Below are positions 374 through 4,421 of a stretch of DNA of 64,000 nucleotides, one piece after another. The stretch spans positions 1-64,000 of the forward strand of contig CANJYB010000022.1 in the NCBI GenBank assembly GCA_947479085.1, written 5' to 3'. The position numbers were made by a program, and so were the translations under genes. Source of the stretch: Bacteroidota bacterium. Its GTDB lineage: Bacteria; Bacteroidota; Bacteroidia; 2-12-FULL-35-15. The notes beneath the pieces are model-generated. The model was given only the letters and a program-made list of their open reading frames with translations. It did not search any database and was not told the DNA's origin. Position 1 is the first letter of the stretch, and the number at the start of each line of letters is the position of its first letter.

Positions 374-1360
374 ATGAAAAATTTACTAATGACAGCGATT
401 GCAGTTTTCGGGATTGCAACGACAACTTTGGCACAAGTGCCTTCTTATGTCCCTACCAATGGACTTGTGGGTTATTGGCCATTCAATGCTAACGCTAATG
501 ATGAGAGTGGCAATGGGAATAATGGTACTGTGAATGGAGCAACCTTGACAAGTGATAGGTTTGGAAGTACGAATGCAGCTTATAGCTTTAATGGTGTGAG
601 CAATTACATTCAATGCATGCAACCAGGCCCAATTGGTGTGCCATCAATAACTGTAGCATTTTGGACAAAAAATATCGGAAGTGGCTCAGGACATATAGTT
701 TCCTGGGGAAATAATGGAATCAGTGGTGAAGATTTTAGAGTATTGACAAACGCATATGGAACATGTGCATCATCTTTAGATTTTGACATTTACAACTCGG
801 GGATAGCATTTGATAATACTTTTTCATCAAACTCTTGGGATTTTTATGTAGTGATTTTTGATAGCTCAATTGGTACTAATATTAATGCTGCTAGCGTCTA
901 TAAAAACGGTGTTCAAATCGGATTAACTTGCTTTAACCAAAATAATTCATCAATCAATATCTCATCTGCTTTTCCCATATGTTTTGGAAAATATCACGGT
1001 ACAATACCAACCGATTATTTATCTGGTATAGTTGACGACATCGGCATCTGGAGCAGAGTTTTGACACAACAAGAAATAACAGATTTATATACTAATTCTA
1101 CTCTTGGAATCAGTGAAGTCTCCCAGAGCAATTTATTTTCAGTATTTCCATCCCCTGCTCAAAACTTAATTAATGTAGAGGCAGACAATAAACTTATTGG
1201 TGAAGTTTATACAATTTATGATAACAGAGGAAGAATTGTCTTGACAGGAAAAATTAACTCTAATAATACAATAATTGAATTGGGTAATTTATCAGGTGGG
1301 ATTTATATATTCAGAGTTGGAGAAAATATGAAGCAGACATTTAAAGTGATTAAGGAATAA
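374..1360 (+). CDS. LamG/concanavalin-like domain protein with T9SS sorting domain
   Basis: A 328-residue secreted protein. Residues 1-20 form a signal peptide (MKNLLMTAIAVFGIATTTLA). A LamG-like jelly-roll of the Laminin_G_3 type follows, with the typical GLVGYWPFN start at about residue 30, YSFNGVSNYIQ near 70-80, and a C-terminal IDDIGIWSRVL-like strand (VDDIGIWSRVLTQQEI) near 220-235. The last 75 residues are a T9SS type A sorting domain (VFPSPAQN, then GGIYIFRV and a final KVIKE). The likely role is a surface or secreted carbohydrate- or protein-binding module, exported by Sec and then T9SS. It is the only gene of the first cassette, and its stop is 4 bp before the attC-like site. Confidence 0.85.
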   Translation: MKNLLMTAIAVFGIATTTLAQVPSYVPTNGLVGYWPFNANANDESGNGNNGTVNGATLTSDRFGSTNAAYSFNGVSNYIQCMQPGPIGVPSITVAFWTKNIGSGSGHIVSWGNNGISGEDFRVLTNAYGTCASSLDFDIYNSGIAFDNTFSSNSWDFYVVIFDSSIGTNINAASVYKNGVQIGLTCFNQNNSSINISSAFPICFGKYHGTIPTDYLSGIVDDIGIWSRVLTQQEITDLYTNSTLGISEVSQSNLFSVFPSPAQNLINVEADNKLIGEVYTIYDNRGRIVLTGKINSNNTIIELGNLSGGIYIFRVGENMKQTFKVIKE

Positions 1361-1364
1361 GCCA

Positions 1365-1447
1365 GCCCTTAACAGCGTGCAAGCGCCATAACCCTGCCGT
1401 AGGCGCAACACAGGGTTACGAGCGCCTGCACGCAAACCGTTATGAGC
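1365..1447 (+). other. attC-like site 1
   Basis: The ends are GCCCTTAAC (1365-1373) and GTTATGAGC (1439-1447). Between them, the arms at 1375-1396 and 1411-1433 pair almost fully (GCGTGC..GCGC..TAACCCTG against CAGGGTTA..GCGC..GCACGC) with a one-base bulge, as in single-stranded attC folding. The stretch between the right arm and the core is AAACC, shared with site 2. About 83 nt, within the usual attC size range. The call rests on structure and end pairing, not on a covariance-model hit. Confidence 0.66.
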
Positions 1448-1589
1448 AATTGTGAGAGCGCTCCGAACGAACATCGGTAGCACAACACGCCTCGCAATAA
1501 ATGGTGTGAAGTTACAAAGAAATAATTTGGTTTGTCGGGACATATAAGTAGAAAATAGTTATTACGCAACAGTAGAAAACAGAAAGACA

Positions 1590-2057
1590 ATGAAGAAAAT
1601 ATTTATTACAGTTTTAATTTGTAGTTGTGAAATGTTTGCGCAAGCGCAAACATTAACACCAACAGTAATATCCACAGCAGGGACAAGTTTTGTAAACGGA
1701 ACTAATGTATTAGATTGGACATTGGGCGAACCCGCAACATTTACACTCAACAACGGTACAAACCTTTTAACACAAGGGTTTCATCAAAACGATTTACTTA
1801 TTACACAAGTAGAAAATTTAGACAACAGTTTTGGAGTTAATGTATTTCCCAACCCCACAGCCGACTTTGTACAAATACAATTTGACAAAGCAACAGATAA
1901 TAATGTAATAGAATTATTTTCAGTTGAAGGAAAACTACTTTTATCCGAAACAAAAAACGCAACAACTATTTCTCAAATTAATATGAGTAATTATGCAAAC
2001 GGAACATATCTATTAAAAATAAATAAAAACAAAACATATCAAATAATTAAAAATTAA
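1590..2057 (+). CDS. Small secreted protein with T9SS type A sorting domain
   Basis: A 155-residue protein with a signal peptide ending near AQAQ (residue 20). A short conserved beta module follows (VISTAGTSF..LDWTLGEPATFTL..LTQGFHQ), of a kind common in Bacteroidota secreted proteins ('WTIGEP...TQGF'). A complete T9SS sorting domain runs from about residue 80 (VNVFPNPTADFVQIQFD) to NGTYLLKINKNKTYQIIKN. It is the first gene of cassette 2, 20 bp ahead of the collagen-like gene and presumably cotranscribed with it. Since the downstream protein has no sorting domain of its own, this one could be its surface partner, but that is speculation. Confidence 0.82.
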   Translation: MKKIFITVLICSCEMFAQAQTLTPTVISTAGTSFVNGTNVLDWTLGEPATFTLNNGTNLLTQGFHQNDLLITQVENLDNSFGVNVFPNPTADFVQIQFDKATDNNVIELFSVEGKLLLSETKNATTISQINMSNYANGTYLLKINKNKTYQIIKN

Positions 2058-2077
2058 ACACTAAAACAAAATAAGAA

Positions 2078-3196
2078 ATGAAAAAAGTATTACTATTATT
2101 ATGTGTAAGTTTATTATTAAACTATACATTGAAAGCACAAGCACCGCAGGGATTTAATTACCAAGCAGTCGCACGCAATACAACAGGTATTGCAATCACA
2201 AACCAAAACATCGGTTTAGAAATTAGTTTGCGACAAGGGAGCGCAACGGGTACAATTGTTTATACCGAAACATTTAACACAACATCTAATAATATAGGTT
2301 TGATAAATGTAGTAGTTGGCACAGGCACAGTAACAGCAGGAACTTTTAATACTATTAATTGGGCAAGTGGTGTTTACTTCATAGAAATAAGTATGGATGC
2401 AACAGGCGGAACAAGTTATGCGTTAATGGGAACACAACAATTAATGAGTGTACCTTATGCTTTATACGCTTTAAGTAGTGGCGGAACAGTTGGCGCAACA
2501 GGCGCAACAGGAACAGCAGGTATAAATGGTACTAATGGAACAAACGGCATTAATGGAACTAATGGTTTAAATGGAACAAACGGAACAAATGGTTTAGTTG
2601 GTGCAACAGGCGCAACAGGAACTAACGGAACTAATGGAGCAGTTGGAGCAACTGGTGCAGCAGGAACAAACGGAACAAATGGAGCAGTTGGTGCTACAGG
2701 AGCTACAGGCGGTTACCCGGTTCATACCATTGGCGAAAGCTATGGCGGAGGAATTGTTTTTTATGTATACGATGGCGGACAACACGGCTTAATTGCAGCC
2801 ACAGCAGACCAAAGTACATCAATAAGATGGTACGGTGGCACTAATACTAATACTCGTGCAAGAGGAGATGGTATTGGTGCAGGGCTAAAAAACACGGCAA
2901 TTATAATAGCCAACCAAGGCTCCGTTGACGGTGCTGATTTTGCCGCTACTGTTTGTAATGAATATTCAGTAACAGTTGATGGAACTACTTATGGCGACTG
3001 GTATTTACCTTCAAAACACGAACTAAATCTTTTATACTTACAAGAAACTGTGGTTGGCGGTTTTGCTAGTTACGCCTATTGGAGTTCTACGGAGGACGGT
3101 TTCTTCGACGCGTGGTACCAGAATTTCAGCGGTGGTCTCCAGAGCAGCCTCAGTAAGAACCTCACATTCTATGTTCGTGCAGTTCGGGCTTTTTAA
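2078..3196 (+). CDS. Collagen-like protein with C-terminal Lcl/DUF1566 domain; likely DGR variable protein
   Basis: 372 residues. Signal peptide 1-20; N-terminal beta domain 21-132 ([14 protein letters not shown]..., found in many Bacteroidota fibre-like proteins); Gly-X-Y collagen-like stretch about 135-213, rich in GTNGTNG and GATGATG; C-terminal Lcl/DUF1566-type C-type-lectin-like domain about 217-372 ([35 protein letters not shown], ending VRAVRAF). That last domain is the classic target of diversity-generating retroelements. From 3095 the codons turn abruptly GC-rich and consist largely of NNC/NNT where homologues have Asn (see the separate VR entry). It sits in cassette 2, followed by a GC hairpin and an avd stump. 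Likely a displayed ligand-binding protein. Confidence 0.85.
3095..3163 (+). other. Putative DGR variable repeat (VR) core
   Basis: Reading in frame, the codons GAC GGT TTC TTC GAC, TAC, TTC AGC GGT GGT CTC, AGC AGC CTC AGT and CTC alternate with fixed GCG TGG, CAG AAT, CAG and AAG AAC. Almost every non-fixed codon ends in C or T, as expected when AAC/AAT codons of a template repeat are mutated at adenines. Related proteins carry the pattern AW.QNF..G.Q....KN with Asn at these positions. The block is much more GC-rich than the surrounding gene and is followed by VRAVRAF and the stop. The template repeat was not found in the window. Confidence 0.7.
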
Positions 3197-3225
3197 CAAT
3201 TTATCTATTTAACAATTTAAATATT

Positions 3226-3238
3226 ACCGCGAAGCGGT
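3226..3238 (+). other. GC hairpin downstream of VR (DGR-type homing hairpin)
   Basis: ACCGC-GAA-GCGGT, a 5-bp stem with a 3-nt loop, lies 30 bp after the stop codon of the target gene in otherwise A/T-rich DNA. DGR target genes often have such a hairpin just after the variable repeat, where it aids retrohoming. It has no T-tract, so it is a poor terminator. Its place between VR and avd matches DGR layout. Confidence 0.55.
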
Positions 3239-3259
3239 CGATTTTATTTTTTGAGAATT

Positions 3260-3382
3260 ATGGCTTTGTATTACGATTTACCGGTTTTTAAAGAGGTGTA
3301 TAAGTTAATACTCGTTTTGTTTGAAATAACAAAAGACTTTCGCAAAGAGTATAAGTACATACTAGGCTCTCTAAATTTGTAG
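3260..3382 (+). pseudogene. avd: Truncated avd (DGR accessory protein), N-terminal 40 residues
   Basis: ATG 3260 to TAG 3380-3382 encodes 40 residues beginning MALYYDLPVFKEVYKLI and continuing FEITKDFRKEYKYILG. This is the start of the Avd/bAvd four-helix-bundle family, which normally begins YYDLPVYK..Y.L and has a TK.F.REYKY.LG motif, but runs to about 110-125 residues. Here the match stops at LG and the frame closes five codons later, 18 bp before the attC-like site. It is therefore a 5' stump that lost its 3' part at or near the cassette end. Full-length Avd would assist a DGR reverse transcriptase; this piece should not be functional. Confidence 0.68.
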
Positions 3383-3400
3383 TAAAGAAAAAACAACGAA

Positions 3401-3534
3401 GGCATAACACGGGTTTGGCAAAAGTGGCGGTTCAGTGCTCCGCAAACACATTTGTGGTTAATCAAAGTTTGGTTCTCCGCATCAACATTTGTGGTGAAAA
3501 TCGCCACCTTCGCCAAGCCCGAAACCGTTAGCGG
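3401..3534 (+). other. attC-like site 2
   Basis: The left end is GGCATAAC (3401-3408) and the right end CCGTTAGCGG (3525-3534). The arms 3410-3429 and 3502-3521 pair at 17 of 20 positions (CGGGTTTGGC..GTGGCG with CGCCAC..GCCAAGCCCG). As in site 1, the right arm is followed by AAACC before GTTA while the left side has one base, an asymmetry expected of attC. Between the arms lies a near-repeat: CTCCGCAAACACATTTGTGGT and CTCCGCATCAACATTTGTGG appear about 38 bp apart. Confidence 0.68.
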
Positions 3535-3568: not shown

Positions 3569-4201
3569 ATGAATATTACAATCATAGGAGCCTCAGCTGG
3601 AATAGGATTAGAAACGGTAAAAAGAGGATTAAATAGAAATCATAAGATAACGACCCTTTCTCGAACTGAAATTGAAATAGAAGAGAAAAAATCGTTAAAT
3701 ATGATACTTGGTGATGCAACAAATAAAGCTGACCTAATAAATTCTATCCAAAACGTAGGTGCGCTAATTGTAACATTGGGGACTGGTAAGAATATGAAAG
3801 CTACTACCCTTTTTTCAGATTTTGCAAAATTGATTGTTGAAATTCATAGGGAGAAAAAAATAGGTATTCCAATTATTTTTGTCACTGGATTTGGAGCAGG
3901 AGAAAGTAAGAATTATGTTTCTTGGATTGTAAAGATGTTTTTAAAATACTTTTTAAAAGATGTTTATGCTGACAAAACTAAAATGGAAGAAATTATCACT
4001 ACTTCCGATATGAATTGGACAGTTGTGAGACCAGGAAGGCTATTAGACAAAGAATTGACAGAGAAATACCGTATTGAAAACAAATTATTCAAAGGAATTA
4101 ATATAGGCGGTATTAATAGAGCAGATGTAGCGGACTTTTTAATAAAACAAGCTGAAAAACAAACTGAATTTAAAAAGTACATTGCTATATCTGAAAAATA
4201 G
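3569..4201 (+). CDS. NAD(P)-binding Rossmann protein (atypical SDR)
   Basis: 210 residues from ATG 3569. An in-frame extension to 3452 is rejected because it lies inside the attC-like hairpin. The N-terminus MNITIIGASAGIG is a dinucleotide-binding GxxxGxG loop, followed by a basic turn (LSRTE), GDATN, and VVRPGRL near residue 150, as in the NAD(P)H-binding (PF13460-like) NmrA/YwnB group. The atypical SDR Tyr-Lys pair is not obvious, so redox activity is uncertain; it may sense or bind NADP(H). It is the only gene of cassette 3 and has no functional link to its neighbours. A/T-rich codon use resembles the other cassettes. Confidence 0.8.
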   Translation: MNITIIGASAGIGLETVKRGLNRNHKITTLSRTEIEIEEKKSLNMILGDATNKADLINSIQNVGALIVTLGTGKNMKATTLFSDFAKLIVEIHREKKIGIPIIFVTGFGAGESKNYVSWIVKMFLKYFLKDVYADKTKMEEIITTSDMNWTVVRPGRLLDKELTEKYRIENKLFKGINIGGINRADVADFLIKQAEKQTEFKKYIAISEK

Positions 4202-4214
4202 AATAAAAGCCGAA

Positions 4215-4406
4215 CCGATAACATAAGATTTATGAAATAAAAAAAGGGGGGGGCGACCTGCCAGTATGAAGTTTCAAGCATTTAATAACGCTTGTCGCGG
4301 GGCGAAAGAGACGAGCTGCTATCACACAGGCTCGCTCAAATGTGCTTTGGCACATTTGCCGGCCCCACATTTTTTTTAATGAGTAAATCTTTGAAACGAT
4401 AGCAGT
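4215..4406 (+). other. attC-like site 3 (long form)
   Basis: The left box is CCGATAAC (4215-4222) and the right end is AAACGATAGCAGT (4394-4406). Arms pair in blocks: AAGATTTA (4225-4232) with TAAATCTT (4384-4391), the A-run near 4237 with the T-run at 4371-4377, and GGGGC with GCCCC (4362-4366). The interior holds a second hairpin CAAATGTGC-TTTG-GCACATTTG near 4337-4358. About 190 nt, longer than sites 1 and 2 and with a degenerate right box (GAT for GTT), so it may be decayed. Confidence 0.5.
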
Positions 4407-4421
4407 AATTTTAAGAACGAT

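Follow-up and report, generated by a model that had tools for sequence, protein, structure and literature searches.

The window, the whole stretch of 64,000 nucleotides analysed here, carries near its beginning a surface protein gene of DGR target type, set among genes and repeats typical of an integron cassette array. The features on which the argument depends are the following.

374..1360, + strand: upstream cassette gene, LamG-type lectin domain (Laminin_G_3, E=2e-11) and T9SS tail (Por_Secre_tail)
1367..1444, - strand: attC site of 78 bp, left boundary, recombination point G1439^T1440
1440..3527, + strand: gene cassette of about 2.1 kb, as delimited by the two attC recombination points
1590..2057, + strand: small secreted protein with a T9SS (type IX secretion) C-terminal sorting domain (Por_Secre_tail, E=1.4e-13), companion of the DGR target
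2078..3196, + strand: DGR target gene, whose product has a signal peptide, an N-terminal domain, a collagen-like stalk and an Lcl/C-type-lectin domain (Pfam Collagen, Lcl_C)
3061..3196, + strand: variable repeat (VR), hypermutated where homologous templates have A
3226..3238, no strand assigned: DGR target-site hairpin ACCGC-GAA-GCGGT, 29 bp past the target stop, its position matching homologous DGRs
3260..3382, + strand: avd stump, the first 37 codons of Avd (3260-3370) by Avd comparison, then a short unrelated tail and stop
3367..3408, + strand: possible relic of an RT-gene 3' end, LSKFVVKKKQRRHN against IAKFILKVRPIKKQRNAN of L063 (p about 0.003-0.007)
3402..3532, - strand: attC site of 131 bp, right boundary, recombination point G3527^T3528
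3569..4201, + strand: downstream cassette gene, NAD(P)-binding protein (NAD_binding_10, E=1.6e-29)
4218..4409, - strand: decayed attC of a 148-bp family (left 100 bp 98% identical, the right arm having diverged); third attC where the array begins on the window contig

The target gene is intact, with 372 codons, and its predicted product is a secreted or surface protein in which a stalk of Gly-X-Y collagen repeats (Pfam Collagen, E=8e-13) carries a C-type-lectin tip formed by the Lcl_C domain (E=1.4e-8). It gives partial matches to NF046116 (adhesin_Lcl) and NF053851, and may act as an adhesin. The two-gene order, with the T9SS protein preceding the target, recurs at C18 in the same genome and at L045, L062 and L116 in other genomes.

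Complete DGRs for comparison were fetched by means of the full Avd of the same genome, and the window VR was aligned to the template repeats (TRs) of 13 homologous complete Bacteroidota DGRs, that is, to heterologous templates. Against the TR of L044, mismatches fall at 29 of 58 template adenines and at 5 of 81 other bases (p=3e-9), and none of the 29 adenines in the VR is itself a mismatch; the TRs of L057 and L048 give 30/57 at adenines and 6/82 elsewhere, and the other ten show the same adenine bias with p between 2.6e-5 and 2.5e-7. Judged by this pattern, the 3' block of the target is a true DGR VR made by adenine mutagenesis, and its NNC and NNT codons are mutated AAC and AAT codons. Beyond the VR, the hairpin has a 5-bp stem and a GAA loop that differs from the GRNA tetraloop of phage. 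A DNA hairpin just downstream of the VR is needed in cis for DGR homing (PMC3240598), and the persistence of stem pairing in L096 and L100, where stem bases have changed and are still complementary, is what would be expected of such a structure. The avd stump is 89% identical over residues 1-37 to the full Avd of the same genome, which is encoded as a 117-aa ORF in the C18 cassette; only these 37 codons of Avd are present in the window. The sequence between the stump and the right attC is at most suggestive of a relic of the RT C-terminus, as might be left by an internal deletion from avd into the RT gene, and this reading is weakened by a CAACGAA-like sequence that also precedes one attC unconnected with any DGR.

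The left attC displays R boxes (TAAC/GTTA), L boxes and a 6/2 unpaired spacer, and folds as DNA with z=-5.8. The 131-bp family to which the right attC belongs is also found on C44-C48 and C50 and at L116 and L117; across its members, the L116 and L117 sites included, double changes are seen in 15 of 24 pairs, and the covariation score of 0.395 compares with 0.131 for shuffled alignments (0/500) and less than 0.08 for slid structures. The 148-bp family comprises many copies that are 97-99% identical, as in large sedentary arrays. A scan by duplex energy alone was too loose, with many matches in the non-array part of the window, and was replaced by a strict architectural pattern (YAAC core, 4-7 nt spacer, 9-bp L box, 2-nt spacer, GTTR). 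About 75 kb of array sequence (C18, C22, C40, C42, C44-C48 and C50) contains 34 matches to this pattern; the rest of the window (58 kb) and eight non-array stretches besides contain none, and Markov-shuffled sequence about zero. The array is an integron-like one spread over about ten contigs of the genome, with attC sites that have the R and L boxes, unpaired spacer and conserved structure of integrons, and the window target sits inside an integron-type gene cassette whose gene order is the same in other DGR cassettes. An initial annotation, made from the letters of this stretch, had described adenine mutagenesis of the VR, the canonical order of target, hairpin and avd, a truncated avd and an integron-like cassette around them; each of these readings has held, the first against L044 and twelve further TRs and the last through the attC sites at 1367-1444 and 3402-3532. 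Around the Lcl_C genes on C23 and C26, attC-like sites were not found in the surroundings examined.

We use the term 'integron-like' with some care. The array on C44 begins with a recombinase gene, and this gene together with the next 208 bp is identical in another species of the genus up to a GTTAT, beyond which identity falls to 24% and unrelated cassettes follow in the two species; such a junction indicates an attI site, which here adjoins the recombinase gene. An additional domain defines IntI (PMC9668308), and the recombinases of C42 and C44 match TIGR02249 in two pieces that skip the IntI-specific region, with bit scores of 180 and 135, below the cut-off of 265. They are, as predicted proteins, XerA/IntI-like recombinases that lack the IntI-specific domain, for which 'integron-like' is the safer term. 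They may act on the attC sites described here, and excision and integration of cassettes would account for the boundaries that cassettes share. Recombinases of this kind head attC arrays with an attI-like site adjoining at L033:2-704 (C44 of the same genome, G000), L032:8806-9975 (C42) and L202:355-1995. The last is a full-length representative of the C44 type, with 546 aa and a long N-terminal extension, and its six nearest relatives (80-100% identical) all lie near a contig end. Further TIGR02249 matches, on C6 and C33, were set aside, being XerC/D-sized and having no attC-like sites nearby.

Further evidence comes from complete DGRs in related Bacteroidota. At L045 the T9SS protein, target, avd, TR and RT stand in that order between two attC sites, the right-hand one of which overlaps the 3' end of the RT gene; here a comparison of the VR with the TR of the same element shows changes at 22 of 52 adenines and at 4 of 94 other bases. 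L062 has the same layout, with a partial left attC (the contig begins inside it, and there is a run of N in the target) and a full right attC that again overlaps the RT 3' end and is followed by a further cassette and attC. Overall, an attC in the correct orientation lies at the RT 3' end in 6 of 36 complete DGRs (L045, L051, L062, L063, L073 and L088), compared with 5 of 1,516 control windows (p=4e-8). A decayed attC remnant occurs at L042, and L068 has an attC on its 5' side; an inverted repeat after the TR of L053 does not have the attC spacer pattern and was left out of the count. One could argue that these hairpins are a terminator or other 3' structure belonging to the DGR itself, which would suit the constant position that they occupy at the RT 3' end of several DGRs and the CAACGAAACGCTAAC motif that they have in common. 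However, the same architecture flanks unrelated genes, among them a metallopeptidase at L062, a toxin-antitoxin-like pair at L116 and dozens in the genome of the window, and it stands upstream of the DGR in L045 and L068, so that we regard this reading as very improbable indeed. Five of the six attC-bearing RTs fall in one well supported Bacteroidota group that spans several families, with L045 outside it; this suggests that the association of attC with DGRs is old, although 84 of 500 label shuffles give as good a result, the attC-bearing RTs are not strictly one clade and scattered gains may also have produced the distribution. The initial annotation had raised a coupling of DGR and cassette from the window copy, and this is better supported than it could have known, because in related Bacteroidota attC sites terminate complete DGRs that have a TR and an RT of their own.

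The left ends of cassettes point the same way. The left end of the C18 cassette recurs in other Bacteroidota. At L116, whose genome has no RT, likeness to it sets in precisely at G|TTATGCC, with a different attC in front, and the same cassette start is found at L096 behind a chromosomal gene interrupted at CTTG|TTAT. In all three genomes the left boundary is at the attC recombination point. The start at L096 looks like an insertion at a secondary site: the DGR-target cassette (L096:8481 and 10195) lies at a GTTAT in the chromosomal gene, with a copy of one repeat on either side, possibly as an off-target insertion. Its left end is a cassette end; its right end was rejected as an attC, since the 65-codon avd stump there ends in the chromosomal repeat, and a weak 64-bp inverted repeat at the stump of L115 was likewise rejected. 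L116 and L117 both have target, hairpin and avd with a common internal deletion, followed by an attC-type repeat (that of L117 fails the strict scan), and their VRs differ. The cassette that follows the DGR-target cassette at L116 (1948-2584) contains, by eye, a toxin-antitoxin-like pair (RelE/HigB-like and HTH). Most comparison loci are contigs of MAGs, and their labels may be wrong.

These boundaries bear on the possibility that the window holds a remote DGR target, in which target, hairpin and a bit of avd were duplicated by chance into an array, the cassette being a mere address and DGRs not being cassettes at all. DGR genomes are known to contain remote variable-protein genes, and hairpins acting in cis have been suggested to activate them (PMC7517822); the avd stump of L096, with no attC after it, would also fit. 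Chance duplication is nevertheless distinctly unlikely in our view, given that attC also terminates complete DGRs, TR and RT included, with one of these flanked on both sides, and that left boundaries correspond to the attC recombination point, at L096 as elsewhere.

The initial annotation had noted that TR and RT are missing beside the target, and this extends to the genome: in the assembly, which is 99.4% complete, Pfam RVT_1 found no RT and a DGR-RT query none at E<=10, while the same RT query detected RTs in eight relatives, and no complete TR was found. TR and RT are both present in L045 and L062, and an RT also in L063; the RT query found none in genomes G014 and G136. The sole near-copy of a TR is at C18, where a second cassette (C18:6216-8390) contains the T9SS protein, a target with VR, the hairpin, full avd, the start of a TR and an attC; the TR remnant, TATTGGAGCAGTACCGAGTATAACGCAAC, keeps the initial ~35 bp up to the point where the attC cuts it off, and its alignable part differs from the C18 VR at two positions, both template adenines. 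The suggestion that the target can still be diversified is not supported, since in a genome with no RT and no usable TR the window VR is probably frozen. An RT and TR on an unassembled cassette, plasmid or phage in the same cell might yet diversify it in trans. The assembly consists of 50 contigs whose breaks fall exactly within arrays, and so a cassette bearing TR and RT could be absent from it; the hairpin, the VR 3' end and the ORF have been kept intact, and the Avds of C18 and G014 differ at 11 codons, all synonymously, which implies that avd was under selection until recently. Against this stand the lack of an RT in so complete a genome and in G014 and G136, and the searches of phages, plasmids and viral contigs, in which only distant relatives of Avd were found. 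We consider continuing diversification in trans unlikely.

Our preferred reading, which we hold to be very likely, is that the window element is the decayed remainder of a DGR gene cassette, derived from it by deletion. We propose that, in a lineage of Bacteroidota, whole DGRs bounded by attC move as single cassettes in integron-like arrays, each comprising a companion secreted protein, a C-type-lectin target with VR, a hairpin, avd, TR and RT. With TR and RT aboard, mutagenic retrohoming would rewrite the lectin tip, and attC recombination would carry the target or the whole element between genomes. Two cassettes in the genome studied here would have lost their 3' part, that of the window everything beyond avd codon 37 and that of C18 by a cut inside the TR, such internal deletions leaving target-only cassettes with mutated, probably frozen surface lectins and their hairpins. 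More generally, we think it probable that a clade of Bacteroidota DGRs has adopted the gene-cassette format, moves through recombinase-driven arrays and sheds TR and RT to yield libraries of pre-mutated lectins, with hypermutation and shuffling brought to bear on the same gene. Movement and mutagenesis are both read here from sequence.

The structure of these elements has analogues in several known systems. Cellular Bacteroidota DGRs with Lcl/C-type-lectin targets (in the order target, avd, TR, RT) share the adenine-directed VR, the 3' hairpin and avd, and keep TR and RT, whereas the elements described here are bounded by attC within cassette arrays and the window copy has lost TR, RT and most of avd. 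The likeness to integron cassettes and CALIN arrays lies in the R and L boxes, the asymmetric 6/2 spacer, the folded bottom strand, the uniform orientation, the attI-like junction and the mostly single-function cassettes, including the toxin-antitoxin-like pair; here, however, the recombinase lacks the IntI-specific domain and cassettes of 3.7-4.8 kb hold a whole retroelement. Remote variable proteins, or dispersed DGR targets, also have the target, with its VR and hairpin, at a distance from the RT, but dispersal in the present case would be by cassette recombination and not by transposases, and no RT was found in the genome itself. Group IIC-attC introns are reverse-transcriptase elements linked to attC, into which they insert; here, by contrast, the retroelement is the content of the cassette and ends in attC. 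A full-text literature search, with most subscription papers and all bioRxiv preprints outside its scope, returned no description of DGRs as integron cassettes, and a large DGR survey does not mention integrons (PMC8144416); novelty is therefore likely, not proved. Bacteria have few systems dedicated to diversifying genes, DGRs and integrons being two of them, and where relatives carry a whole DGR, RT included, as a cassette, the two are physically joined. The finding also points to an integron-like platform in Bacteroidota with a recombinase lacking the IntI hallmark domain.

Three further observations concern the same genome. A cassette on C42 (L032:14804-16657) has the same order of a T9SS protein and a target-type N-terminus, with a C-terminus that has no obvious VR. 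Seven more genes for four-helix bundles (23S_rRNA_IVP, Avd-like) exceed the Pfam cut-off on C1, C2, C5, C12, C14, C28 and C31, without linkage to a DGR as far as seen. Finally, positions 240-307 of the window form a near-perfect 26-nt inverted repeat, ATACCCGAAACAAACCTTCGGGTATC, and CGAAAC palindromes like it occur in the attI regions of C44 and L208.
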